This document shows, one piece after another, positions 1 to 44,061 of a DNA stretch of 44,355 bases (positions are counted from its first letter, which is position 1; every line of letters starts with the position of its first letter). Position numbers and translations under genes: made by a program. The DNA lies in assembly GCA_013388855.1 (NCBI GenBank), contig JACAEM010000015.1, positions 1 to 44,355 of the forward strand. The letters are read 5' to 3'. This DNA is from Chloroflexota bacterium. GTDB taxonomy: Bacteria > Chloroflexota > Anaerolineae > Anaerolineales > Villigracilaceae. The notes beneath the pieces are model-generated. The model saw only the letters and a list, made by a program, of their open reading frames with translations, had not been told where the DNA came from and made no database searches.

Positions 1-340
<340 letters not shown>

Positions 341-30512: not shown

Positions 30513-31607
30513 ATGATCAAGAGATGGATCGTCGTCACAGCAATCACCGTCCTGCTCCTTTCCGCCTGCGGCGGGCAGGGACAGGCTCCCACTGCAACAC
30601 TCGCGCCCACAAACACAGAATCTCCGGCGCCGGTCGTCACCGAGCCCCCTGTTGCCGTTACGGAAGCGACCGTCCTCCCCCCCACCGAGGCGGTTGCCAC
30701 GATTTCCGCCACAGCCGAGATTCCAAGACCCACCAATGACCCCAACTGCACCAACAGCGCCTCCTTCGTCGCTGATGTGACCATCCCGGACAATACGGAA
30801 ATCGCGGGTGGCACCACCTTTGTGAAAACCTGGCGCATCGTCAACACTGGAACCTGCATCTGGGGACCTGACTACACGCTTACCCATTATTCGCAGGAGC
30901 GCATGGGCGCCCCGGCCTCGGTGCCGCTGGGCGTCACCTTCCCCGGTCAGACCCTGGACATTTCCCTATCCCTGACCGCCCCCAACGCCGTGGGAAAGTA
31001 TCAGGGCAACTTTGTCATCAAAAATCCCAAGGGGCTGATCATGAAAATCAACGATGACTCACGCCTGTGGCTCATCATCCAGGTGACAAGCCCCGCCGCC
31101 CCGACCGCTGCTCCGACATCCGCCGCAACGGTTCAGGCCACAAACACCAGTGCCGGGACCGGTTCGAGCGGCACCGGCTTTGCCAATGCCACCTGCAGTT
31201 TCAGCATCGACCAGGCAAAACTCTCGCAGGTGATCAACGGCGTCAATGCCTATCGCGCACAAAACGGGTTGCCCGCCTACACAGTCAACGCACAACTTGC
31301 CAAAGCCGCGCAAGCGCACGCAGCCGACATGGCATGCAACAACCTGACCGGGCACACCGGCTCTGACAAATCCACGGTGGAATCGCGGGTGGCGGCAAGC
31401 GGGTACGTGGCTGCGTTCGAGTCCGAAAACGTGTACTATGCTAACCCGCCGGGCACTGGGCAGGATGCCGTCAACTGGTGGATCAACGACCAATCCGAAA
31501 CAAGACATCGGCTCAATCTGATCAGCGATACCTACATCCACATCGGCGTGGGATACGCTTTCTTCAACAACACCGGCTACTACGTCATTGTATTCGCAAC
31601 GCCATAA
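30513..31607 (+). CDS. Lipoprotein with NBR1-type Ig domain and CAP/SCP domain (copy 1)
   Basis: This 364-residue protein has a lipoprotein signal (IKRWIVVTAITVLLLSAC, Cys19), a long Thr/Pro/Ala linker, then an NBR1-like Ig domain (about 75-190: FVADVTIPDNTEIAGGTTFVKTWRIVNTGTCIWG through the LSLTAPNAVGKYQGNF strands). A CAP/SCP domain follows (about 230-364: LSQVINGVNAYRAQNGLPAYTVN, AKAAQAHAADMACNN, and HIGVGYAFFNNTGYYVIVFA). CAP domains in bacteria are secreted and of mostly unknown activity. The start has a GGAGG site. The next gene has the same architecture. Confidence 0.93.
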   Translation: MIKRWIVVTAITVLLLSACGGQGQAPTATLAPTNTESPAPVVTEPPVAVTEATVLPPTEAVATISATAEIPRPTNDPNCTNSASFVADVTIPDNTEIAGGTTFVKTWRIVNTGTCIWGPDYTLTHYSQERMGAPASVPLGVTFPGQTLDISLSLTAPNAVGKYQGNFVIKNPKGLIMKINDDSRLWLIIQVTSPAAPTAAPTSAATVQATNTSAGTGSSGTGFANATCSFSIDQAKLSQVINGVNAYRAQNGLPAYTVNAQLAKAAQAHAADMACNNLTGHTGSDKSTVESRVAASGYVAAFESENVYYANPPGTGQDAVNWWINDQSETRHRLNLISDTYIHIGVGYAFFNNTGYYVIVFATP

Positions 31608-31675: not shown

Positions 31676-32704
31676 ATGAAAAAATTCTGGATTCTCAGCC
31701 TGCTGGCTGTTTTCATTCTGACATCCTGCGTCACTATTTCGGAGGAGACCACGCCGGATACGCCGCCTCTCTTCGTGACCTCCACCCTGCCTCCGACAAA
31801 ACAGGGACTTACCCTGCCGACAGAGGTCCCGCCAACCGCCTCCCCCACGCTCGACCCGTTGACCCCAGCCGCGACCTCCACCTCCGCCGCCTCCTGCCGG
31901 GATAGCGCCATCCTCGTCGAGGATGTCACCATCCCCGACAACACCAGCGTCCCCCGCGGGCAGAAATTCACCAAAACGTGGAAGTTCCAAAATATGGGAC
32001 GCTGCACATGGACGGGGTACACCATTGCCTTCCTCTCCGGGGATCGAATGAGTTCCCCCGATTCCGCCCCCGTGCCGGAGACCGAAGCCCGCGCCACGGT
32101 GGATGTATCCGTCGACCTGATTGCCCCGCCCAACGACGGCGCGTTTACGGGAATCTTCGAATTGCGGAACGCGTCGGGCGAGGTGGTCCCCATTGGCACG
32201 GAAAAGTCGTTTTGGGTAAAGATCATCGTCGGAAGCGGAGCCAGCCCCACATCCGGTTCGGGAGGCGTGGTCGTTACCTCGCCGCCATCCGACATTTCGC
32301 AGTGTAAATACAGTGAAAATGCAGGCTATGTCCAAGAATTGTTCTCGCTCATGAATCAAGCGCGTGCGGACGCCAATCTCCCTGCTTTGACGTTAAACGC
32401 GCAACTGTCGGCTGCTGCGCGGGCGCACAGCCTGGACATGGCGTGCAACAATTTCCTCAGTCACACCGGTTCCGATGGCTCGTGGATCCGCGACCGTCTG
32501 CTCGCGGCGGGCTATGACACCTACAGCTACCAAGAGATCATCGCCATCGGCACGCCGCAGGATGCGATGACCCAGTGGCGAAACGACCAGCCGCACTGGG
32601 ATATTGTGCTTAACCCTTATGCAAGCGATGTCGGCGTGGGATATGTCTACAACGCCGACAGTCAGTTCGGCGGGTATTTCACCGTCGATTTTGCCAGCCC
32701 ATAG
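31676..32704 (+). CDS. Lipoprotein with NBR1-type Ig domain and CAP/SCP domain (copy 2)
   Basis: This 342-residue paralogue of the preceding gene has a lipoprotein signal (MKKFWILSLLAVFILTSC, Cys18), a Thr/Pro linker, an NBR1-like Ig domain (LVEDVTIPDNTSVPRGQKFTK, TWKFQNMGRCTWTGYTIAF) and a CAP domain (LFSLMNQARADANLPALTLN, ARAHSLDMACNNFLSHTGSDGS, VGVGYVYNADSQFGGYFTVDFA). The two proteins have clearly diverged, so the duplication is not recent. TAGAAT (31664-31669) ends 6 nt before the ATG, which has no Shine-Dalgarno, so a leaderless transcript is likely. Confidence 0.93.
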   Translation: MKKFWILSLLAVFILTSCVTISEETTPDTPPLFVTSTLPPTKQGLTLPTEVPPTASPTLDPLTPAATSTSAASCRDSAILVEDVTIPDNTSVPRGQKFTKTWKFQNMGRCTWTGYTIAFLSGDRMSSPDSAPVPETEARATVDVSVDLIAPPNDGAFTGIFELRNASGEVVPIGTEKSFWVKIIVGSGASPTSGSGGVVVTSPPSDISQCKYSENAGYVQELFSLMNQARADANLPALTLNAQLSAAARAHSLDMACNNFLSHTGSDGSWIRDRLLAAGYDTYSYQEIIAIGTPQDAMTQWRNDQPHWDIVLNPYASDVGVGYVYNADSQFGGYFTVDFASP

Positions 32705-32743: not shown

Positions 32744-33952
32744 CTATAAAATCACATTTGGCATCTTTGGCTGATACTCAGGAAAAATTTCATTTGTAGC
32801 AGGATTATTCAAACGCTTCATCAAAATCTCTGAGAGCACATCACGATAATCGGTCGTGACCGCCAGGTCGCCGGGTCCCATGAGTTGACCTTCTCCCAGC
32901 CCGGGCCACTCCCCATGCACCTTGCCGCCATCCACATTCCCGCCCATCACCATCATCATGCTGCCATGACCATGATCCGTGCCGAGGCTGCCATTCTCCG
33001 AAGCGCGCCGCCCAAACTCGGACATGGTGACGACCGTCAGATTCTTCATCTGTCCGTGCATGTCGGCATGAAAGGCGGCGAGACCGTCGGCGAGGTCTTT
33101 CATCAAAGTGGGCATCAAGCCGGTGACTGAACCTTGTGCAAAGTGTGTATCCCAACCGCCCACATCGATGGCAGAAACTTCGAGCCCCACCTCCGCTTTG
33201 ATGAGCATGGCAGTCTGTTTGAGGGCAAGGCCGAACTCGGAATCGGGATAATTAAGTGGAGATTGGTAACCAGTCGGGTCAAGTTCTTGAAGTGTATCCA
33301 TAATGGATAGCGTTTCCTGCCCCATCACGTCATTCTGATAGACCGTGCTTAATGCGGCGCGCATTTGCTGCAAAGCCCGCGGGTCGCCGCCAAGGTGGAA
33401 ATCCGCGATGGAACGCAACGCCGAAACGGGAACAGATCCGCTCAGACTGCGCTGTGGACGCGTCCCCATTCCCACCGCCCGCAAAGGCGATGAATTACCC
33501 GTGTTCAATGTGGCGAGGTGACGACCAATCCACCCCGAGGCGGGACCGCGCTCGTCATCCACGCCGCGCTCCATCAACTCCATGGCTTTGAAATGACTGC
33601 GCGACTCATCCGGCGCTCCACAGGCATGGATGACGGCTAGTTGTTTCTCCTGCCAGGCATCAACAAGACTGTGCATGACAGGATGAAAACCGAAGAAACC
33701 ATCCAGATCGATGACTCTATCCTCCTTCTTCTTTCTTCCATCATCCGGCCTTGGAATGCCCAGCGATGGTCGCAAACGATAATAGGACTCTTCACCGTGC
33801 GGCACGACCATGTTGAGAACATCCGCGGCGCCGCGCAGGAAGATGACAACTAACGTATCACCGCGCGGGGCGGTATTTTGCGGTGCGAAGGCAAGGCGAG
33901 GCATCCAGGTTGGGAGGGTCTGGGTGAGGGTGGTTACCATTATTTTCTCCAT
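32744..33952 (-). CDS. DUF1501 domain protein
   Basis: This 402-residue protein matches the DUF1501 family, alkaline-phosphatase-superfamily-like proteins usually encoded beside DUF1800. Signature parts are GDTLVVIFLRGAADVLNMVVP, HPVMHSLVDAWQEKQLAVIHACG, DVGGWDTHFAQGS, VVTMSEFGRRASENGSLGTDHGHG and VMGGNVDGGKVHGEWPGL. The GWDTH and DHGHG segments carry the likely metal-binding residues. No classic signal peptide is visible at the start chosen (ATG 33952; ATG 33940 is an alternative); the N-terminal part may instead be exported with its Tat-type partner. It follows DUF1800 by 1 bp, so they are coupled. Confidence 0.9.
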   Translation of the reverse strand: MEKIMVTTLTQTLPTWMPRLAFAPQNTAPRGDTLVVIFLRGAADVLNMVVPHGEESYYRLRPSLGIPRPDDGRKKKEDRVIDLDGFFGFHPVMHSLVDAWQEKQLAVIHACGAPDESRSHFKAMELMERGVDDERGPASGWIGRHLATLNTGNSSPLRAVGMGTRPQRSLSGSVPVSALRSIADFHLGGDPRALQQMRAALSTVYQNDVMGQETLSIMDTLQELDPTGYQSPLNYPDSEFGLALKQTAMLIKAEVGLEVSAIDVGGWDTHFAQGSVTGLMPTLMKDLADGLAAFHADMHGQMKNLTVVTMSEFGRRASENGSLGTDHGHGSMMMVMGGNVDGGKVHGEWPGLGEGQLMGPGDLAVTTDYRDVLSEILMKRLNNPATNEIFPEYQPKMPNVIL

Positions 33953-33953
33953 T

Positions 33954-35432
33954 TCATCTCCACTGAAACGCAGGTGACGCGATGAGACTCGCTGTGATGA
34001 TTTGCAAAGCCTCCTCTTCGGCGACTCCGGCCAAGGTAACGGAGTCGATCAACTCGTCGCGGGTGATGCGTTCGAGAGGGGCACCTAAAAGCAATGAGGC
34101 GAGAGCATCCACATCATCGTGTAAAACGCCAGTCGATGAGGCATCCAACAAATCTCTGAGATTGTGTTTCGTTCCTTTGATCTCGTTCCGAATTAATTCA
34201 AAGGCGAATTGCCAGCGCGGCATGAGGTTGCCCTGCCAGGCCTCATTGTGATCAGGATAACCGTCGGGCGTGGGCCAGTTGAAATAGGCCTGCCCCATGC
34301 GAAGGAGATGCTCGTGCACTGCCGCACCGTTGGTCTCGGCATTCAACATGCGCAGGGCAGACAGGACAAAATTTGCGGGGCGCTTGTATTTTGGTCTGGC
34401 AAGGGGAAGTCCATCCAGCAGTATGACGCGTAACACAGACTTGATATCGCCGTTCGTTTGGAGAAAAGTTTGCGCGGCTTTTGCGACAAGTTCTGGAGGA
34501 GGGTCATCCGCGATGAATCGGCGGGCAAGCTTTGTCGTGATGAACCGTGCCGTACTGGGATGCTCCACCAAGCGCTCGATGACCTGCTCCGCTTCTTTCT
34601 GCCCTGACGGCTGGATCGTCAGCCCCAAAACATTTTTCACCCCTGTATCGTGGAGGTCTTCCTTGAAGACGAAATCGCCCAGCCAGAAATGCTCCTTGAC
34701 ATTCCAACCCGTGAGACAACGCGCCAGTTCCATCACATCCTGTTGGGTGTAGCCGCCGTACACACCGAGGGTATGGAGTTCCATCAGTTCACGGGCATAA
34801 TTTTCATTGGGGTGACTCTTCTCGTTTGCCTGATTGTCGAGGTAGATCAGCATCGCGGGCGAATGTGCGGACGCCCAGACCAGGTCACGGAAAGAACCCA
34901 TCGCATTCCTGCGAATCACTTCGCGGTCATCAACCGTTTTGAGGTAAAAGCAACTGCCTTTTTCCACGAAGATATTGAAGTGGTCACTCCAAAACTCGAC
35001 CATTAACTCGTAGAGTTGCCGTTTGCTGTAGAGTTGCCGCAGGATTGTAGCTTGACGCAGTTCGTTCGGCACTTTCTCCCGGTCGTAATTTTCGAAGAGT
35101 TGGTTGCTGATGGCTTCCAGTTCGTTGGCTGCCATATCGAGAGTGTTGAAGGTCGAAAGTTGCAGATTGCAGGAGAAATCATCAATGGAATCGAAGGCGA
35201 GCTGTTCCTCGATATAAGCTTGCAGACCGATTTCAGCGAAGCGGGCGCGTTCCTCCACGCGTGGACCGAAGGTGAGACGGTTCAAGGCAAGGAAGTCGTT
35301 TGCGTTGAGCGGTGTCCACGGGATAGTGGGAAGGTTACCTGCCAATCTGCGATATACAGGGGCACAAGAGGAGAGGGCCGCACTGGCGGTGATCACTGTA
35401 AAAAGTTTGAGGAAGTCACGGCGAGAAAGCAT
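33954..35432 (-). CDS. DUF1800 domain protein with Tat/lipoprotein signal
   Basis: This 492-residue protein matches DUF1800. The N-terminus MLSRRDFLKLFTVITASAALSSC combines a twin-arginine motif (SRRDFLK) with a lipobox (LSSC), so it should be exported folded and lipid-anchored. Family segments include LALNRLTFGPRVEERARFAEIGLQAYIEEQL, ELMVEFWSDHFNIFVEKGS, NENYARELMELHTLGVYGGYTQQDVMELARCLTGW, and ARRFIADDPPPELVAKAAQTF. The biochemical role of DUF1800/DUF1501 pairs is not established. A heptamer-periodic AGTAAAC/AGTAAGC/GGTAGAT stretch lies just upstream of the start (35433-35473). Confidence 0.92.
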   Translation of the reverse strand: MLSRRDFLKLFTVITASAALSSCAPVYRRLAGNLPTIPWTPLNANDFLALNRLTFGPRVEERARFAEIGLQAYIEEQLAFDSIDDFSCNLQLSTFNTLDMAANELEAISNQLFENYDREKVPNELRQATILRQLYSKRQLYELMVEFWSDHFNIFVEKGSCFYLKTVDDREVIRRNAMGSFRDLVWASAHSPAMLIYLDNQANEKSHPNENYARELMELHTLGVYGGYTQQDVMELARCLTGWNVKEHFWLGDFVFKEDLHDTGVKNVLGLTIQPSGQKEAEQVIERLVEHPSTARFITTKLARRFIADDPPPELVAKAAQTFLQTNGDIKSVLRVILLDGLPLARPKYKRPANFVLSALRMLNAETNGAAVHEHLLRMGQAYFNWPTPDGYPDHNEAWQGNLMPRWQFAFELIRNEIKGTKHNLRDLLDASSTGVLHDDVDALASLLLGAPLERITRDELIDSVTLAGVAEEEALQIITASLIASPAFQWR

Positions 35433-35495: not shown

Positions 35496-36020
35496 TTAAG
35501 CGCGGGAGGGTGAAGTTGTTGCGGAAGAAACCGGTGTCTTCTCACGCGGTGTCCAATTGAGAAGGGCAAAACCGGTAGCGCCGAAAGCCGTGATAAGCGC
35601 CAGCGGCCAGAGGAAGAACCATCCCAGCACGGGGAAGAAAGCAGCAAGTTCCAGAACGACCGTTCCGCGCAGGAAGGCACTGAGATGGGAATAATTGCTG
35701 CCAGTCTGTTTCATCTGTTCACCAAGATGGGCGGCGATCCCTGCCGAACCGATAGAGGATAGCGCCAACGAGGCGGCAAGCAACACCCAACCGAGGAATT
35801 TGGCGGGGCCGAAGGGAAGGGCCAATAGGATGACAATGGGAATCGTCAGGGCAACAACGATGACCAATCCCAGCCAGAAGGTGCGGGCAAGAGTCTTTTC
35901 GACGCGAATCTGGGCACGCGCTACAACAGCCGGGAACAACAGCCACCAGGCGGTCAGCATGGACGGGAAGGCAATGGAAATGATGAGCAGAATGAAAAAG
36001 ATGGCGGAAATGTCAGCCAT
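35496..36020 (-). CDS. Small multi-pass membrane protein (paralogue A), ECF-sigma regulated
   Basis: The ATG at 36020 follows an AAAGGA site and gives 174 residues; the longer frame to 36134 runs through the promoter and is rejected. I do not recognise the family. Four hydrophobic segments are visible: ISAIFFILLIISIAFP, FWLGLVIVVALTIPIVILLALPF, FLGWVLLAASLALSSIGSAGIAA and AAFFPVLGWFFLWPLALITAF. It is clearly related to the next gene upstream on this strand (36180-36671), sharing LxRxFWxGLV, AxxLGE and FPVLGWF-type segments. An ECF-type promoter at 36053-36081 is identical in its -35 block and spacing to that of the sigma gene. Confidence 0.8.
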   Translation of the reverse strand: MADISAIFFILLIISIAFPSMLTAWWLLFPAVVARAQIRVEKTLARTFWLGLVIVVALTIPIVILLALPFGPAKFLGWVLLAASLALSSIGSAGIAAHLGEQMKQTGSNYSHLSAFLRGTVVLELAAFFPVLGWFFLWPLALITAFGATGFALLNWTPREKTPVSSATTSPSRA

Positions 36021-36052: not shown

Positions 36053-36081
36053 GATACAGGAGAGAATGGGAAAAAGTTGCA
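36053..36081 (-). promoter_or_regulatory. ECF-sigma-type promoter of membrane protein A
   Basis: On the minus strand the -35 block TGCAACTTTTTC (36070-36081) is followed by exactly 11 bp and TGTATC (36053-36058). The 12-nt block and the 11-bp spacer are identical to those before the sigma gene (37786-37814). The spacer sequences differ, so the match is not a recent copy. Confidence 0.8.
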
Positions 36082-36179
36082 GTAGAGAATCCTCCAACCT
36101 GCGCTGATTCATGCGAATAAAAAAAGACGCGCAACCGGCGCGTCTTTGTAAAAGGAAAGAAGCCCTGCGACCTTTGCGA

Positions 36180-36671
36180 TTAACTGGTTTCGCGCTGGAA
36201 GAAACTCAGGATGACGGCGCCAAAGCCAGTGAGTCCGGCATATGGCAACAGAAGGAACCATCCAACAAATGGGAGGGCGCAAGCGAAGGCGAGGGATACT
36301 GTCCCCCACAACGTCTTTTTCCATGCAGGGTGATCAGGGAAGATTCGCTCGCCGAGAAGATTGACCATACCCGCGAGCCCAAAGCTTAGCATGATGGATA
36401 GTGATGCGGCAATAATGAGGGCGGGAGTCATCAGGATGACCCTGAACACACTTCCGACATTTTCCGCAACCGAGAAGAGCAACAGGGCGATAACACCGAA
36501 GAACAGGAAATTCACCAATCCCACCCAGAAGGAACGCCCCAATGCCTGGCGGAGGGCGCGTTGGGTTTTACCCACCCTGTTGGAGAAGAACGCCCCCCAA
36601 ACGAGAAAGTACGCGGCGAATGCGATGGTAAGCAAAATGACGATGAAAAAGAATCGAAGGATGTCAGTCAT
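36180..36671 (-). CDS. Small multi-pass membrane protein (paralogue B)
   Basis: This 163-residue protein of unknown function has about four hydrophobic segments: FFFIVILLTIAFAAYFLVWGAF, FWVGLVNFLFFGVIALLLF, VILMTPALIIAASLSIMLSFGLAG and FACALPFVGWFLLLPYAGLTG. It resembles the 35496 protein along its length, particularly ALGRSFWVGLV against TLARTFWLGLV and LPFVGWFLLLPYAGLTGFGA against FPVLGWFFLWPLALITAFGA. It starts 45 bp after the anti-sigma gene, with no ECF-like promoter in the gap, so it is probably in the sigma operon. Confidence 0.78.
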   Translation of the reverse strand: MTDILRFFFIVILLTIAFAAYFLVWGAFFSNRVGKTQRALRQALGRSFWVGLVNFLFFGVIALLLFSVAENVGSVFRVILMTPALIIAASLSIMLSFGLAGMVNLLGERIFPDHPAWKKTLWGTVSLAFACALPFVGWFLLLPYAGLTGFGAVILSFFQRETS

Positions 36672-36716
36672 GGATGGTCTCCTGGTAGGATGGCGGAGAT
36701 GGGCGTTGTTCCGTCC

Positions 36717-37250
36717 CTACGCTTGTTTCCTCAATAACAATCCATTCCCCACCAGCCAGAGAATGGATACGCCAGCAAGCATAATCATTAACATGAGGCT
36801 GGAAATTTCCAGGGGCGGGAGTTGCGGCATGGCTGGAAAGCGGAAAGTGGATAACATATCAAGCCATGTCGTCCATTGGGATTGGAACTGGACGACGATC
36901 TCGGTCAAGGAAGGCATTTGAACGGTAACAAGGTAAGGCGAAACAAGGTCCACTGCGAAGGGTGCCGCGGCGATGATGGCGATCACAACGAGGGCGGCTT
37001 GCAGTGTCGCTGTCAGTGTGAGCCAGCGCGGAAGCGCGGCAGGCAGGCTCGGACGTGGAGTGATCCGTGCGGCGAGGTCGCGGGATAGAGCTTCTTCCGG
37101 GAGAGAATCCAGTTCGGCAAATAGGGCTTGTAGCGCGGCAAGACGCGCCGCACAGTCCGCACAGACAGCCAGATGCGTTTCAGCAGACGCGCGGTCGGCG
37201 AGTTCATGGTCCAAGTATTCGTTCAGGGTTTCGTCGGTCAGATGGTTCAT
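36717..37250 (-). CDS. Membrane anti-sigma factor with ZAS-like zinc motif
   Basis: This 177-residue protein has an N-terminal zinc-binding anti-sigma domain: TDETLNEYLDHELADRASAETHLAVCADCAARL contains HxxxCxxC. Two hydrophobic segments follow (LQAALVVIAIIAAAPFAVDL and SSLMLMIMLAGVSILWLVGNGLLL), with an extracytoplasmic loop between them. It should hold the upstream ECF sigma at the membrane until a signal. The start codon overlaps the sigma stop codon (ATGA), giving translational coupling, which is the usual sigma/anti-sigma arrangement. Confidence 0.92.
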   Translation of the reverse strand: MNHLTDETLNEYLDHELADRASAETHLAVCADCAARLAALQALFAELDSLPEEALSRDLAARITPRPSLPAALPRWLTLTATLQAALVVIAIIAAAPFAVDLVSPYLVTVQMPSLTEIVVQFQSQWTTWLDMLSTFRFPAMPQLPPLEISSLMLMIMLAGVSILWLVGNGLLLRKQA

Positions 37251-37774
37251 TTGAGTTTCTCCGCCAGCAGTTTGCGGGCGCGGAAGAGATGACTCTTCAC
37301 GTCGCTCAGGGGGATGTGGAGTTCGCCCGCGATCTCGTCGTAGGACAGGTCTTGATAATGACGGAGTTCGACCACGGCTCGATAATGCGCGGGCAGGGAC
37401 GCCAGCGCGACGCGGATCTGTTCGCTTCGTTCGCGGACTTCGACAACTGATTCCGGCTGTGAGCTTTCACCGGCATCCCGGTCATCGTCCAGTTCGGCAG
37501 TGATCTTCTGCGACTCGAGGTGGTTGAGACACAGGTTCGCCGCCGCCCGCCGTACCCAGGGACCGAACTCACGTTCGAGGTCGAAGGTGTCGAGCCGGGA
37601 ATAGATCCGCAGGAAGGTCTCCTGCGTCAGGTCTTCGGCTTCGCGGCGCTCGTTCGTCATGCGATAACAGACGTTGAATACGCTCTTTTGGTAGCGCGTG
37701 ACGAGTTCGCCGAACGCCTCACCGTCTCCGCGGCGGGCACGCAGGATGAGGTCGCGGTCGGTCGGCGCGGTCAT
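37247..37774 (-). CDS. ECF-family RNA polymerase sigma factor
   Basis: This 175-residue protein has the two ECF regions. Sigma2 runs from DLILRARRGDGEAFGELVTRYQKSVFNVCYRM, with DLTQETFLRIYSRLDTFD as the core-binding/-10 region. Sigma4 contains LPAHYRAVVELRHYQDLSYDEIAGELHIPLSDVKSHLFRARKLL, the -35-binding helix-turn-helix. The gene has an ECF-like promoter only 11 bp before the start codon (37786-37814), the same as that of the 35496 gene, so it is probably autoregulated. The next gene is its anti-sigma factor. Confidence 0.95.
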   Translation of the reverse strand: MTAPTDRDLILRARRGDGEAFGELVTRYQKSVFNVCYRMTNERREAEDLTQETFLRIYSRLDTFDLEREFGPWVRRAAANLCLNHLESQKITAELDDDRDAGESSQPESVVEVRERSEQIRVALASLPAHYRAVVELRHYQDLSYDEIAGELHIPLSDVKSHLFRARKLLAEKLK

Positions 37775-37785
37775 GGCTACAGTGT

Positions 37786-37814
37786 AATACAGGTCTCAGG
37801 GCGAAAAAGTTGCA
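37786..37814 (-). promoter_or_regulatory. ECF-sigma-type promoter of the sigma/anti-sigma operon
   Basis: On the minus strand TGCAACTTTTTC (37803-37814), an 11-bp spacer and TGTATT (37786-37791) precede the sigma ATG (37774). ECF promoters commonly have an AAC-containing -35 element. The matching copy is at 36053-36081. Confidence 0.8.
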
Positions 37815-38936: not shown

Positions 38937-39000
38937 GGGCACTCCATCAAGACAGGATGATTGATTTTACAACAATTTTTTGCCGGGTTTTGCATCGATA

Positions 39001-39029
39001 TTGTCAGGTTGGACGAAGGTATTTTTAAT
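39001..39029 (+). promoter_or_regulatory. Promoter of the giant secreted protein gene
   Basis: TTGTCA (39001-39006) and TTTAAT (39024-39029) are 17 bp apart. Initiation near 39036 makes the in-frame upstream starts at 38980 and 39028 unlikely and leaves a leader of about 75 nt before the GTG at 39112. Confidence 0.5.
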
Positions 39030-39100
39030 GTCCGGGGCCGGGTTTGGCGCGATGATTAAACAGGATGACCCAAGCCGGGAGAATGTTGTGCGGCTTGATC

Positions 39101-39107
39101 AAGGAGG
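39101..39107 (+). promoter_or_regulatory. Ribosome-binding site that fixes the GTG start at 39112
   Basis: A perfect AAGGAGG lies 4 nt before the in-frame GTG at 39112. Starting there gives a clean signal peptide, (M)FGRKLLGIVLLAGLLLIQS ending in ASA-Q. Other in-frame starts (38980, 39052) lack a ribosome-binding site and would bury the signal peptide. Confidence 0.7.
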
Positions 39108-39111
39108 CAGT

Positions 39112-42100
39112 GTGTTCGGACGAAAGCTTCTTGGCATAGTTTTGTTGGCGGGGTTATTGTTAATTCAGTCGATTCCGCAGGCATCTGCACAGACCTTTTG
39201 TGACCATGTCCAATTCGTGGCGGATGTGACCGTTCCAGACGGCTCGGTATTCGCACGGGGGGCAACATTCACCAAAACCTGGCGCCTGCGGAATGCCGGC
39301 ACCTGCACTTGGACGACAGCCTACAGTCTGGTGTATGCAGGCGGCGACCAAATGGGCGGACCCGCTTCCGCAGCGCTGCCGGGTGAGGTATTGCCCGGTC
39401 AAACGGTGGATGTCTCGGTCAGCCTGACCGCCCCGGCTGCAGCCGGGCAGTACAAGGGGTTGTGGAAAATTGCCAACGCGTCGGGCGTCCAGTTCGGCGT
39501 TGGCAGTTCCGCCGGGAACCCGTTCTGGGTGGTCATCAATGTGACGCAGGACAATGCAGTACAGAACAACTCCGTGATCGCCGCCGCGCCCGTGAGTTGG
39601 GTGGCTTTCGATTTCCTTGAGTACGCGATCTCCTCCCAGTGGAGAAGCGGCGCGGGCATTTTGAGTTTTCCCGGCGTCACAGGCGACAGCCGCGGCTTCG
39701 CCAATTTTGTGGATCAACCTCATCTGGAGGATGGAACGTTCGACACATCCAAAGGCTTGTTGATGGCGCCGCAAAATAAATATGACGGCTACATCCAGAT
39801 GACTTCGCCCAACATCCTGATCTCCCAGGGCGACAAATTGGAAACGCTCGTCAGTTGTGAATTCGATGCAAAGAATTGCTACGTCACCTTCCGCATCGAC
39901 TATCTGAAAGCCAACGGAGCACAGCTAAAATTCTGGTCATGGAAGGAGGCGTTCGACGGGCGCTACTATCGCGCCAGCATCGACCTGAGTCCACTGGCAG
40001 GGCAAGCCGTCCGGTTCGTCTTCATGACCCTCGCCACCGGATACGCGAGCGGCGACCGCGCACTGTGGGTTGCGCCGCGCATCATCCGCACGACCGGAGG
40101 AGAGACTCCGGCTCCTCCCACGCCCACTCCTGGTACGCCTCCGACACAGCCTCCCGCCACTGGAGGCGTAATCGCGGCGCCCTACATCCGTCAGTTGTAC
40201 ATGAAGGACGCGTTCAACGGCTGGGCAATCGGCGACTCCTATCTGTTGCGGACCACGAACGGCGGTTCCACCTGGATGAATGTCTCCCCGCCAAATGCGG
40301 TTTTCACCAATGGCGCGACAGGTTTCTTCTCCAGTTCCAGCACAGGCTGGTTATTGACCGGCGAGAACAAACTCTATCGCACCACTAACGGCGGAAGCAC
40401 ATGGACGGCGTACAGCGTTCCATTTGGAAACGGGTATATCCAATTCACAGACAGTTATCACGGTTTCGTGTTATCGGGCGAGGGCTCGGGGATGAACAAG
40501 CAAGCCGTCGCCCTCTACAAGACCAACGACGGCGGCGCAACCTGGGTCAAAAATTACGACAACACGCCCACGCTCCCCAATCCGGGCACCAGCCTGCCCT
40601 TCAGCGGACACAAGAGCGGGATGACTTTCCGCGACTCCCTGACCGGCTGGGTCAGCGGCGATATTCCCATGGACGGCTTTGCCTATTTCTACCGCACCAG
40701 CGATGCGGGAAAAAATTGGATACAACAGCCATTGGCTCTGCCAGCAGGGTACGAATCCGCCTTTGTTTCCACCGCCTCTCCCAGTTTCTTCGGCATCTAC
40801 AACGCTGTTCTTCCGGTGTGGCTGGGCAAGATGGAGGGCAGAGACCTGTTCATCTACTCGACCACCAACGGCGGGATTTCATGGAGCCGTTCCAGCGGAT
40901 ATTCTCGAGGCGCTGATTTCGTTGATTTTGTCACGTCGAAGAACGGTTTCGCCTGGGATCATTCCGGCGTCTTCCACGTCACCGCCAACGCCGGAGGAAC
41001 GTGGACTCAAGTCAGCCCGAACGTCAACTTCGGCAATGACTTCCGCGGCATGGATTTCGTCTCGACGACGACCGGCTGGGTCATTCAGCGGCATGTCGAT
41101 AATTCGACCTCTTTGTATAAAACAACAGACGGCGCCGCCACCTGGACATTGCTTTCCACCAATAAACCCGGCGGGACCCCGACGGACACGCCTGTCCCCT
41201 CCGCCTGCGACAAGGCGACCTTTGTCTCCGATGTCACAGTGCTGGATGGGACCCTCTTCGCGCCGGGGACACCCTTCACCAAGACCTGGCGTCTGAAAAA
41301 TTCCGGTTCGTGCACGTGGACGACTTCCTACAAGCTGATCTTCCAAAGCGGCGACCAGATGGGCGCGCCCGCCTCGATCAATCTGCCCGTGAATGTCGCG
41401 CCGGAACAAACTATCGACGTCTCGGTGCCGATGACCGCCCCCAACAATGCCGGGAAATATCGTGGTTATTGGATGTTGAGCAACGCCAGCGGCGCGCTCT
41501 TCGGGCTTGGTGAAAACGCAAACTCTCCCTTCTGGGTGGAAATCAACGTTTCGGGCACAACTGTCGACACAGGCTATGATTTCACCGCCAACGTCTGCTC
41601 GGCGCAATGGAAGAGCGGCGGAGGCATCCTCCCCTGCCCGGGCACCGATGGCGCCTACAACGGCTTCGTTCTCAAACTCGATGCGCCCGTCATGGAGGAC
41701 GGTTCGGTCGCCGCGCCGGGATTACTGACCTCCCCGCAGCGAAAATACGACGGCTACATCCAGGGCTTCTACCCCGAGTTCACCGTCCAAGCAGGCGACC
41801 GCTTCCAGGCAAAGGTCGGTTGCCAGCAAGGCTACAACTGTTACCTGACCTACCGCCTCAATTACATGACCGCGAACGGTTGGATTGGCACCTTTTGGCA
41901 ATGGCGTGAATCGAACGACGGCAAATACTACACCGCCGACATCGACCTGACCCCATTGGCTGGAAAGACAGTGCGCTTCATCCTGACGACCCTCGCCACC
42001 GGATATGCAACCGATGACCGCGCCGTCTGGAGCGCCCCGCGCATCGTCCGCGCAGGAAGCGCACCGGTGACGGCTACGCCTCCCCCTCCGCCGACAACTA

Positions 42101-44061
42101 CGCCCACGCCGCCAGCCGATTCCTGGCTGACGTTCACCAGCCCGCAGTACGGATTCCAGTTCCAGTATCCGCCGGGTTCCGTGGTTTTCAATCAGGTGGC
42201 AAACAGCGCGGTTGTGAACCTGCCCATCGTACCGGGCACGAACCTGGTCGAAAAATATCTCGACCTGCGCATGCTGGAGAACGTACAGACCTGTGCCGCC
42301 CCAATGGTGGGCGCCTCACCCACCCGCGAAACCGTGACCATCAACGGCATCACCTTCCTCAAAGATGTCGGCGAGGAGGATGGCGCGGGACAGATCCGCA
42401 AGTGGGTGGCGTACAATACGACGCGCAACAATTTATGCGTCAGTTTCCTGTTCGTATTGCATTCGGGCAATCCAGGCAACTACGATCCACCCAGACCTGT
42501 CTATGACGAGGCAGCGGAATCGGCAGTCTTCCAGCAAATGATGCAAACCTTTGCATGGCTGACACCGGCCCCGACCACGCCGACGCCATCTTCCCAACTC
42601 CTGCCAGACCTGACCATCCTGAACATGCGCATCGAACTGATGAACACAAGTTGTCTCAGCCCGGGCGATTCTCTTGGCGTGCGCATCTGGGTCACCAACA
42701 ACGGACAGGCAAACGCGGGTGATTTCCTGGTCACCGTGAACAACGCACAGCAACCCGTGAACGGGCTGGCCGTCGGCGAAATAAAAGCCCTGTTCTTCCC
42801 CGGCTATACCAATCCGGTATTGGCAATGGTCGATTCGACCTCTGCCATCGCCGAAAGCAACGAGGCGAACAATTCACGCTCCGAGATGGTGGCGGTTCCC
42901 ACCGCGCCCCTGCCATGCGCCAACCCGACCCCTACCCCGCAGGATTTTGCAACGTTCGGACAGAACCTTGTCACAGTGTTGAACAGCAAAAGCTTCGACC
43001 TCGCCAAAAGCATGATGGACCAGTCCTTTGGCTTTGCCTTCTGGGGTTCACAGGGATTCCCTGCTACCCCGGATCAAGCCGTCGAGCAGCTACAGATAAA
43101 CTATCTTGGCTCGACACCTCTCACCGCCAACCCCTACAAGGACTTGAACCTCTTACTGGACGGTTTGAATCCCTATGTCATCATGAACCTTGATCCAGCC
43201 AGATCGCAGGCATTGTTCGTTTCAGGCTGGGGTTTGGATGGCAAGGGAGAAGCCCTTCTATATATGACCCGCCGTCTGGATGGCAGTATTTACTGGCATA
43301 GTGTTCTGATTGCACCAACGGGATTCCAGCCCGTCACGCTGACGGGACCCTATGCGGTGGTGAATGTGGCAGAGAATGATTCCTTGAACATTCGGGCGGG
43401 GGCGGGTGTCAGTCAACCGATCATCGGGTATCTTTCTCCGGACGCGATAGATGTCATGCGCACGGGACCAAGTACGAGCGTGGATGGAGCCGTGTGGGTA
43501 GAAATCCGCAGGAATGACGGACTGACAGGCTGGGTTAATTCGTATTATTTGACAGAATATGTCACGCAAGCGGTATTTTGCGCAGACAGCCGCGTTACGG
43601 CGCTTATTGAGCAGTTGAAGCAAAGCATGCAGCAATCCGATGGAAATTTGCTCGCGCCGATTGTAAGCCCGATCCATGGCGTAAACATGCATCTGTGGGC
43701 ATATGGACCCGGTATCAACTTCCCGCAAAGCAGTGTGGCAAATATTTACACAGATACCACCATCTACAATTGGGGAGGCGGTCCAAGTGGTCAACCGGAT
43801 ACAGGCACATTCAATGTTACGGTAAAACCAAAATATCTGGAGGTCTTCAACGCCGCGAATCGCGAAGTGTATTGCGACACTCTGACCAAAGTCTTCCCCC
43901 TTTCGAGACCCTGGCCTTACCGGAATATCCGTTACTACAACCTATACAAGCCCGCCACACCGGACGTATTCTTTGATTTCCGCACCCTGTTGATCGGCAT
44001 CGAGTACATCAATGGACAGCCATATTTGTACAGCATGGTTACGGTGATTTGGGAGCCATGA
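39112..44061 (+). CDS. Large secreted multidomain protein: 2x (NBR1-Ig + unknown domain), YCF48-like propeller, CARDB, SH3b
   Basis: From GTG 39112 the protein has 1649 residues and a signal peptide (cleavage after ASA). Domains in order are NBR1-type Ig (about 28-144), an unrecognised domain (164-330, containing KYDGYIQM), a Pro/Thr linker, a YCF48/BNR-like propeller with repeated LYRTTNGGSTW (353-685), a second NBR1 Ig (700-815), a second copy of the unrecognised domain (821-981, KYDGYIQG), a PsbP-like domain (YGFQFQYPPGS, 1004-1150), CARDB (1163-1263), an unassigned part, SH3b (DSLNIRAGAGVSQPIIGYL, 1410-1483) and a conserved-looking C-terminus. It is extracellular and probably binds carbohydrate or cell wall. 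No catalytic motif is seen. Confidence 0.88.
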   Translation: MFGRKLLGIVLLAGLLLIQSIPQASAQTFCDHVQFVADVTVPDGSVFARGATFTKTWRLRNAGTCTWTTAYSLVYAGGDQMGGPASAALPGEVLPGQTVDVSVSLTAPAAAGQYKGLWKIANASGVQFGVGSSAGNPFWVVINVTQDNAVQNNSVIAAAPVSWVAFDFLEYAISSQWRSGAGILSFPGVTGDSRGFANFVDQPHLEDGTFDTSKGLLMAPQNKYDGYIQMTSPNILISQGDKLETLVSCEFDAKNCYVTFRIDYLKANGAQLKFWSWKEAFDGRYYRASIDLSPLAGQAVRFVFMTLATGYASGDRALWVAPRIIRTTGGETPAPPTPTPGTPPTQPPATGGVIAAPYIRQLYMKDAFNGWAIGDSYLLRTTNGGSTWMNVSPPNAVFTNGATGFFSSSSTGWLLTGENKLYRTTNGGSTWTAYSVPFGNGYIQFTDSYHGFVLSGEGSGMNKQAVALYKTNDGGATWVKNYDNTPTLPNPGTSLPFSGHKSGMTFRDSLTGWVSGDIPMDGFAYFYRTSDAGKNWIQQPLALPAGYESAFVSTASPSFFGIYNAVLPVWLGKMEGRDLFIYSTTNGGISWSRSSGYSRGADFVDFVTSKNGFAWDHSGVFHVTANAGGTWTQVSPNVNFGNDFRGMDFVSTTTGWVIQRHVDNSTSLYKTTDGAATWTLLSTNKPGGTPTDTPVPSACDKATFVSDVTVLDGTLFAPGTPFTKTWRLKNSGSCTWTTSYKLIFQSGDQMGAPASINLPVNVAPEQTIDVSVPMTAPNNAGKYRGYWMLSNASGALFGLGENANSPFWVEINVSGTTVDTGYDFTANVCSAQWKSGGGILPCPGTDGAYNGFVLKLDAPVMEDGSVAAPGLLTSPQRKYDGYIQGFYPEFTVQAGDRFQAKVGCQQGYNCYLTYRLNYMTANGWIGTFWQWRESNDGKYYTADIDLTPLAGKTVRFILTTLATGYATDDRAVWSAPRIVRAGSAPVTATPPPPPTTTPTPPADSWLTFTSPQYGFQFQYPPGSVVFNQVANSAVVNLPIVPGTNLVEKYLDLRMLENVQTCAAPMVGASPTRETVTINGITFLKDVGEEDGAGQIRKWVAYNTTRNNLCVSFLFVLHSGNPGNYDPPRPVYDEAAESAVFQQMMQTFAWLTPAPTTPTPSSQLLPDLTILNMRIELMNTSCLSPGDSLGVRIWVTNNGQANAGDFLVTVNNAQQPVNGLAVGEIKALFFPGYTNPVLAMVDSTSAIAESNEANNSRSEMVAVPTAPLPCANPTPTPQDFATFGQNLVTVLNSKSFDLAKSMMDQSFGFAFWGSQGFPATPDQAVEQLQINYLGSTPLTANPYKDLNLLLDGLNPYVIMNLDPARSQALFVSGWGLDGKGEALLYMTRRLDGSIYWHSVLIAPTGFQPVTLTGPYAVVNVAENDSLNIRAGAGVSQPIIGYLSPDAIDVMRTGPSTSVDGAVWVEIRRNDGLTGWVNSYYLTEYVTQAVFCADSRVTALIEQLKQSMQQSDGNLLAPIVSPIHGVNMHLWAYGPGINFPQSSVANIYTDTTIYNWGGGPSGQPDTGTFNVTVKPKYLEVFNAANREVYCDTLTKVFPLSRPWPYRNIRYYNLYKPATPDVFFDFRTLLIGIEYINGQPYLYSMVTVIWEP

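Follow-up and report, generated by a model that had tools for sequence, protein, structure and literature searches.

We analyzed a stretch of 44,355 nucleotides (the window) from a genome of the order Anaerolineales that comprises 4,034,133 bases in 46 contigs and is 99% complete. On the minus strand, we found, in this order, the genes for an ECF sigma factor (SIG), an anti-sigma factor (ASF), and a small membrane protein (MP1), then a terminator-like hairpin, the promoter-like sequence P2, and the genes for a second membrane protein (MP2), a DUF1800 protein, and a DUF1501 protein. SIG (175 amino acids [aa]; 37247 to 37774, minus strand) matches the models for sigma region 2 (Sigma70_r2, 2e-17) and region 4 (Sigma70_r4_2, 6e-18) as well as an ECF-wide model, and the region 3 model is absent among its six matches. 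Its best NCBIfam match is SigW, below the cutoff (136.5 versus 209 bits). ECF sigma factors have been sorted into 156 ECF groups, as described in PMC7406223.

The ASF gene (177 aa; 36717 to 37250, minus strand) overlaps SIG by 4 bases. ASF contains an Hx3Cx2C motif (HLAVCADC) and two hydrophobic segments, the latter judged by eye, and the motif is present in the ASF of the window and in 25/25 named orthologues. Hx3Cx2C is described as the motif that distinguishes zinc-binding class I anti-sigma factors (PMC7406223). With its position beside an ECF gene, its hydrophobic segments, and this motif, ASF fits class I (ASDI). A Pfam search of ASF gave no match to an anti-sigma family, and NCBIfam gave weak matches below the cutoff, to an anti-sigma model (E, 7.9e-06) and to ChrR (E, 8.7e-04).

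MP1 (36180 to 36671, minus strand) is a small multihelix membrane protein and is both paralogue and neighbor of MP2 (174 aa; 35496 to 36020, minus strand), whose ATG at 36020 is preceded by the SD-like letters AAAGGA. Neither protein had a match in a Pfam search. The structural model of MP2 was confident (pLDDT, 87.6), yet its best PDB match had an E value of 0.73. Between MP1 and P2 lies a hairpin with a 10-pair stem and a T run (36123 to 36147, minus strand), which perhaps ends a SIG-ASF-MP1 transcript. Terminator-like hairpins are as common in this region as in shuffled sequence (6 found, 6.4 expected), and the folding of this one is unexceptional (z, −0.84); the terminator is therefore just suggestive.

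Downstream of MP2 are the genes for the DUF1800 protein (33954 to 35432, minus strand), which carries a twin-arginine signal, and, after a 1-base gap, the DUF1501 protein (32744 to 33952, minus strand). DUF1800 comes after MP2 in 32/32 loci. We concluded from this arrangement that MP2-DUF1800-DUF1501 is probably a second transcription unit, with both DUF genes probably under P2. According to PMC5122149, DUF1800 and DUF1501 occur next to bacterial chitin synthases as a pair of unknown function that is predicted to form an operon. Just past DUF1501, on the plus strand, two tandem genes (30513 to 31607 and 31676 to 32704) each encode a protein that combines a CAP domain with an Ig-like domain of the NBR1 type. 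Elsewhere in the window, we noted a gene for a 1,693-aa protein (38980 to 44061) in which two NBR1-type Ig-like stretches are accompanied by CARDB, a bacterial SH3 domain, and a sortilin-type match, and the 5′ part of a 16S rRNA gene (1 to 340, minus strand), truncated at the contig end.

A first, sequence-only reading of the window had placed two ECF-type promoters with an identical −35 block and spacer at this locus. We confirmed both sites. TGCAACTTTTTC-N11-TGTATY has two matches in the window, one at 36053 to 36081 (TGCAACTTTTTCCCATTCTCTCCTGTATC) and one at 37786 to 37814 (TGCAACTTTTTCGCCCTGAGACCTGTATT), both on the minus strand and with a common −35 block, and it had 0 matches in 100 shuffled windows. 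The spacer is identical in length; its sequence differs between the two sites. The second site contains P1, the ECF-type promoter of the sigma operon (37788 to 37814, minus strand; TGCAAC at 37809 to 37814, N16, CTGTA at 37788 to 37792), and ends 11 bases before the SIG ATG at 37774 (13 bases from CTGTA). The first contains P2, the ECF-type promoter of the second unit (36055 to 36081, minus strand; TGCAAC at 36076 to 36081, N16, CTGTA at 36055 to 36059), and ends 32 bases before the MP2 ATG (34 from CTGTA).

The same reading had suggested a search of the whole genome, in which a frequent and randomly placed motif would count against it. We found the opposite: TGCAACTTTTTC-N11-TGTAT occurs exactly twice in the 4.03 Mb, at the two window sites, and its reversed control has 0 matches across the whole genome. 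With up to 3 mismatches, we found 14 places, and the reversed control had 9; most loose matches are therefore noise, and only close matches are meaningful. At one mismatch, there were three more sites, on contigs C46, C4, and C13, versus 2 for the reversed control. Directly downstream of the sites on C4 (L076) and C13 (L077), a comparable gene start is lacking, and we treated these sites as noise.

We compared the locus across 61 genomes (our own and 60 relatives) and assigned sigma orthologues by tree. Orthologues were present in 24 relatives, and the named species genome search yielded further ones in metagenome-assembled genomes (MAGs) named Anaerolineales, Anaerolineae, or Chloroflexi. In a tree of 91 sigma proteins, the SIG orthologues group together in a single clade (46 rows; support, 100/96), and an ECF factor encoded on contig C39 of our own genome falls into its sister clade (13 rows). 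From 62 sigma rows, we dropped 12 that had no intact start or fewer than 44 bases upstream, which left 50, and then L134 to L136, which the tree places in the sister clade, which left 47 usable rows. One of the 31 MP2 rows was dropped because of a contig end (G004), which left 30, and an MP2 gene on another contig in G040 (L195) fell below the identity cut and was excluded from scoring.

We found P1 ahead of SIG orthologues in 42/47 rows (at least 11 of the 13 fixed letters of TGCAACNTT-N13-CTGTA) and P2 ahead of MP2 orthologues in 27/30 rows (12 or 13 letters matched); the rows share descent, so these counts are not independent events, and p values overstate independence. Among the five missed sigma rows are two with 10-of-13 sites and one whose one-mismatch site is 95 bases upstream. 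When we trained a matrix on the P1 sites alone, it scored 27 of 30 MP2 upstream regions at 17.8 to 37.3 bits. Applied to the regions upstream of ASF, MP1, DUF1800, and DUF1501 (42, 25, 33, and 23 rows), it reached a maximum of 2.5. Among 6,000 shuffled MP2 upstream regions, the 99.9th percentile was 11.6 and the maximum was 20.7, which exceeds the lowest of the 27 MP2 scores (17.8).

The geometry is constant. At the observed gap between the blocks, 43 sigma rows and 27 MP2 rows match; at a gap one base shorter, one base longer, or two bases shorter, 0 rows of either kind match. Matches at a gap two bases longer (2 sigma rows and 1 MP2 row) proved to be shifted readings of the same sites, which score better at the normal gap. 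Information is concentrated in the ten-base −35 (1.7 bits per base) and in CCTGTA (1.7 to 1.9 bits), versus 0.31 to 0.43 bits per base in the spacer and 0.13 to 0.16 upstream.

In principle, the repeat could have arisen by chance or, since MP1 and MP2 are adjacent paralogues, as a side effect of a recent duplication of their region. Chance is rejected by the shuffled windows, by the two sites in the genome, and by the 40 perfect sites versus 2 control sites in the 61 genomes (see below). Against duplication, the spacers and flanks of P1 and P2 are unrelated, and P1 precedes SIG rather than MP1. Several families of the order also retain both sites. The MP2 operon and the sigma gene are on different contigs in seven genomes, which in drafts is not always proof of real separation. 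Six of these could be scored, and 5/6 retain a site with at most one mismatch (perfect in G022 and G039; one mismatch in G019, G026, and G036; none in G054), which argues against conservation through mere neighborhood. We consider an origin by chance or duplication to be practically negligible.

We then counted perfect matches to TGCAACNTT-N13-CTGTA and found 40 in the 61 genomes versus 2 for the reversed control. By our assignment, 17 lie before SIG, 13 before MP2, and 3 before LIP, a lipoprotein gene discussed below; 4 lie before one other membrane gene, and 3 lie elsewhere, including one within an open reading frame in G027 (L095), which we treated as noise. The motif is present in 22/25 sigma-bearing genomes versus 2/36 genomes without the sigma factor (Fisher p, 2.5e-11, in which kinship makes independence overstated). 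The MP family showed a similar distribution (25/25 sigma genomes versus 2/36 others). Absence of the sigma factor in the 36 genomes was established by tree in 8 and, in 28, by a best match with an E value of 2e-34 or weaker or by no match at all. The motif tracks the SIG clade, and prediction of the regulon from sequence, as claimed by the sequence-only reading, has exceptions. These are G015 and G024, in which we found a perfect site (before the membrane gene and before LIP, respectively) and no SIG-clade sigma factor. In G015, another reader or a lost sigma factor is possible.

The other membrane gene encodes a 313-aa protein (L086, 1501 to 2477; also L088, L106, L085, and L243) without a match in a Pfam search. 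It has a perfect CTGTA-type site 8 to 9 bases before its ATG in G009, G012, G013, and G015 and is close to LIP in G009 and G013. In G031, a similar gene lies two genes downstream of another perfect site.

The ECF gene on contig C39, from the sister clade, bears on specificity. We found TGCAACTTTTCC-N10-CGTATA before its own start (83115 to 83142; L237), with one perfect match in the genome; this is a putative autoregulatory promoter of the sister gene. The distance between its blocks equals that at P1 and P2, and its −10 is CGTA versus CTGTA. The sequence-only reading had taken twelve identical bases plus identical spacing as strong evidence that the sigma factor controls both genes. The twelve-base −35 block is indeed common to both sites, but because the sister gene has TGCAACTTTTCC, it is not SIG specific, and the −10 makes the difference. 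In Bacillus, the T tract and single changes in the −10 affect ECF specificity, according to work cited in PMC6767563. The comparison within our genome suggests that the two sister ECF circuits are kept apart by the −10 rather than by the more prominent −35.

A −35 common to the sister ECF factor makes cross-reading possible, and we asked how probable it is that another ECF factor, such as the C39 sister, reads the sites wholly or partly, with the neighboring SIG as one of several readers. The genome has 11 matches to the SIG protein, overlapping ECF specificities are known from Bacillus and Streptomyces (PMC6767563), and the perfect sites of G015 and G024 occur without the SIG clade. However, sister-clade genes are found in G007, G015, G024, G034, G043, and G051, and only G015 and G024 among these have a perfect site; the motif follows the SIG clade instead, and the sister's own promoter carries CGTA rather than CTGTA. 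We regard a reader other than SIG, or several readers, as unlikely.

The distance from P1 to its gene is short and nearly fixed. CTGTA lies 13 bases before the SIG ATG in 35/42 P1 rows and 11 to 14 bases before it in 42/42. A purine follows 10 bases past CTGTA in 42/42 rows (A in 35) and is likely the transcript start, and SD-like letters occur in 2/42 P1 leaders versus 27/27 MP2 genes with a site. From these features, we expect that the message of SIG-clade sigma factors should be nearly leaderless.

These observations also bear on whether the repeat is an RNA element or is bound by a transcription factor of its own, rather than being a sigma promoter. A conserved upstream element by itself is no proof of a promoter, but we found nothing that favors a factor or an RNA. 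At P1, the 11 to 14 bases before the ATG fit a transcript start and leave hardly any room for an activator site together with another promoter, and a sigma-70-like promoter was predicted at neither P1 nor P2. The motif is nonpalindromic and has the two-block geometry of ECF promoters at a single spacing. When we scanned 25 loci on both strands, all sites with at most one mismatch at these genes were oriented toward the gene. We therefore think it very improbable that the repeat is a factor site or an RNA element.

Within P1, we also found the box TACACT (37781 to 37786, minus strand), a TANNNT sequence whose first T is 12 bases before the SIG ATG. TANNNT occurs at +2 to +7 in 32/42 P1 rows and in 0/27 P2 rows. 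PMC3160421 gives this position of the first T, 12 bases ahead of the start codon, for bacterial leaderless genes. SIG fits the sequence criteria of such TA-led genes, with TANNNT about 12 bases before the start and SD letters mostly absent in the clade, and TACACT is a possible leaderless housekeeping −10. The TANNNT bases would either be part of the start region of the ECF promoter or let P1 act in addition as a leaderless housekeeping promoter, which would maintain the sensor at a basal level. Tentatively, and with more doubt than confidence, we propose that P1 is a double promoter in which an ECF promoter (CTGTA) and a leaderless housekeeping promoter (TANNNT) are fused, and that the P2 effectors would place DUF1800-DUF1501 in envelope stress defense. 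If P1 is fused in this way, two transcripts would come from some 40 bases: one without a leader, made constantly at a basal level, that installs the sigma/anti-sigma sensor, and one that is autoinduced and whose leader has about four bases. P2 would be the ECF part alone with an ordinary SD.

The sequence-only reading had described a local regulon. Both neighboring units do carry the promoter, but the regulon does not seem to be just local. On contig C46, we found a one-mismatch site, CGCAACTTTTCC-N10-CTGTA, 10 bases before the first ATG of LIP, which encodes a 395-aa lipoprotein; since most LIP homologues begin at a point further along the protein, the actual start of LIP may be downstream of this ATG. 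LIP on C46 is probably a third target of SIG in this genome. In five other genera (G019, G021, G022, G023, and G026), LIP is part of the sigma operon, where it follows ASF, and there we found no site of its own at up to two mismatches. In L110 and L116, LIP lies within the MP2 operon, between MP2 and DUF1800. Of the 9 standalone LIP genes in sigma-bearing genomes, 5 have a site with one mismatch or none (G000, G009, G012, G013, and G046); in G009, G012, and G013, this site lies 144 to 178 bases upstream of the gene. The remaining cases have two mismatches (G011, G025, and G040, the last doubtful) or three (G031). In genomes without SIG, LIP has a close site in 1/7 (G024). A weak LIP match in G032 (E, 2.5e-28) was excluded from these counts.

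Glycoside hydrolases of clan A are TIM barrels in which glutamates follow strands 4 and 7. In LIP, the glutamates of SEIN and AEGG are invariant, 6/23 members match GH53 weakly (best, 0.0023), and a low-confidence model of LIP (pLDDT, 59.9) has mostly glycosidase barrels as its best PDB matches. Because of these three features, LIP is likely glycosidase-like in function. Pfam searches of LIP and its neighbor gave no matches, and a search of the PDB by sequence gave none, either with the single protein or with a 23-row profile. In our own genome, a 344-aa membrane protein gene (L078, 1588 to 2622) precedes LIP, and in other genera (L062 to L064, L066, and L069) it precedes the sigma gene; the LIP and sigma loci thus seem to share an old neighborhood.

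The same bipartite promoter lies before the sigma operon and its targets, as in an autoregulated regulon. Conservation of the sites before both genes, their constant spacing, their co-occurrence with the sigma factor in the 61 genomes, and the MP2 sites on separate contigs support the proposal of the sequence-only reading that SIG controls both. P1 and P2 are very probably promoters of one ECF sigma factor, SIG, which we infer to bind at both. According to this model, ASF, anchored in the membrane and of the class I Hx3Cx2C type, would hold SIG in resting cells, and an envelope signal would free it. Free SIG would then transcribe SIG-ASF-MP1 from P1, with positive feedback and fresh anti-sigma factor as the result, and MP2-DUF1800-DUF1501 from P2. 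In our own genome, SIG would probably also drive LIP on C46. Since the products resemble membrane or exported proteins, a response to envelope damage or to cell wall or glycan stress is most likely.

This type of circuit, an autoregulated ECF sigma factor with a class I anti-sigma factor, is already known. SigW-RsiW of Bacillus subtilis consists of a two-domain ECF sigma factor and an adjacent membrane anti-sigma factor and controls an envelope regulon, and the SigW operon is preceded by an AAC-type −35 with a T tract. SIG shares the two domains, the adjacent membrane ASF with Hx3Cx2C, the AAC-type −35 with a T tract, and envelope-type targets. In contrast to that system, the SIG promoters have CTGTA as the −10, and the sigma transcript is predicted to be almost leaderless. 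To our knowledge, MP1/MP2, DUF1800-DUF1501, and LIP are not among the SigW targets. RsiW itself carries the zinc motif Hx3Cx2C (PMC7406223). The regulon of sigma-E in Streptomyces coelicolor is likewise an ECF regulon of envelope genes, and PMC6767563 lists two targets with a TGCAAC −35; sigma-E has many targets, with mostly a CGTC-type −10 in rows of the table there, whereas SIG has two to three sites with CTGTA. The TANNNT of P1 resembles that of the TA-led leaderless genes in PMC3160421 in that its first T is 12 bases ahead of the start codon, but the boxes described there are of the housekeeping type, and that of P1 would be fused to an ECF promoter.

None of the titles listed in our searches of the open-licence literature dealt with this ECF system. 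The analysis provides a testable regulon, derived from sequence alone, for an ECF sigma factor whose clade belongs to uncultured Anaerolineales; the promoter signature is constant and can be used to search further MAGs. A lipoprotein family and the orphan pair DUF1800-DUF1501 are linked to a single regulator of the envelope type, which offers some genes of unknown function a first testable regulator. Beyond the known circuit type, the possible fusion at P1 and the DUF1800-DUF1501 pair are the points of specialist interest.
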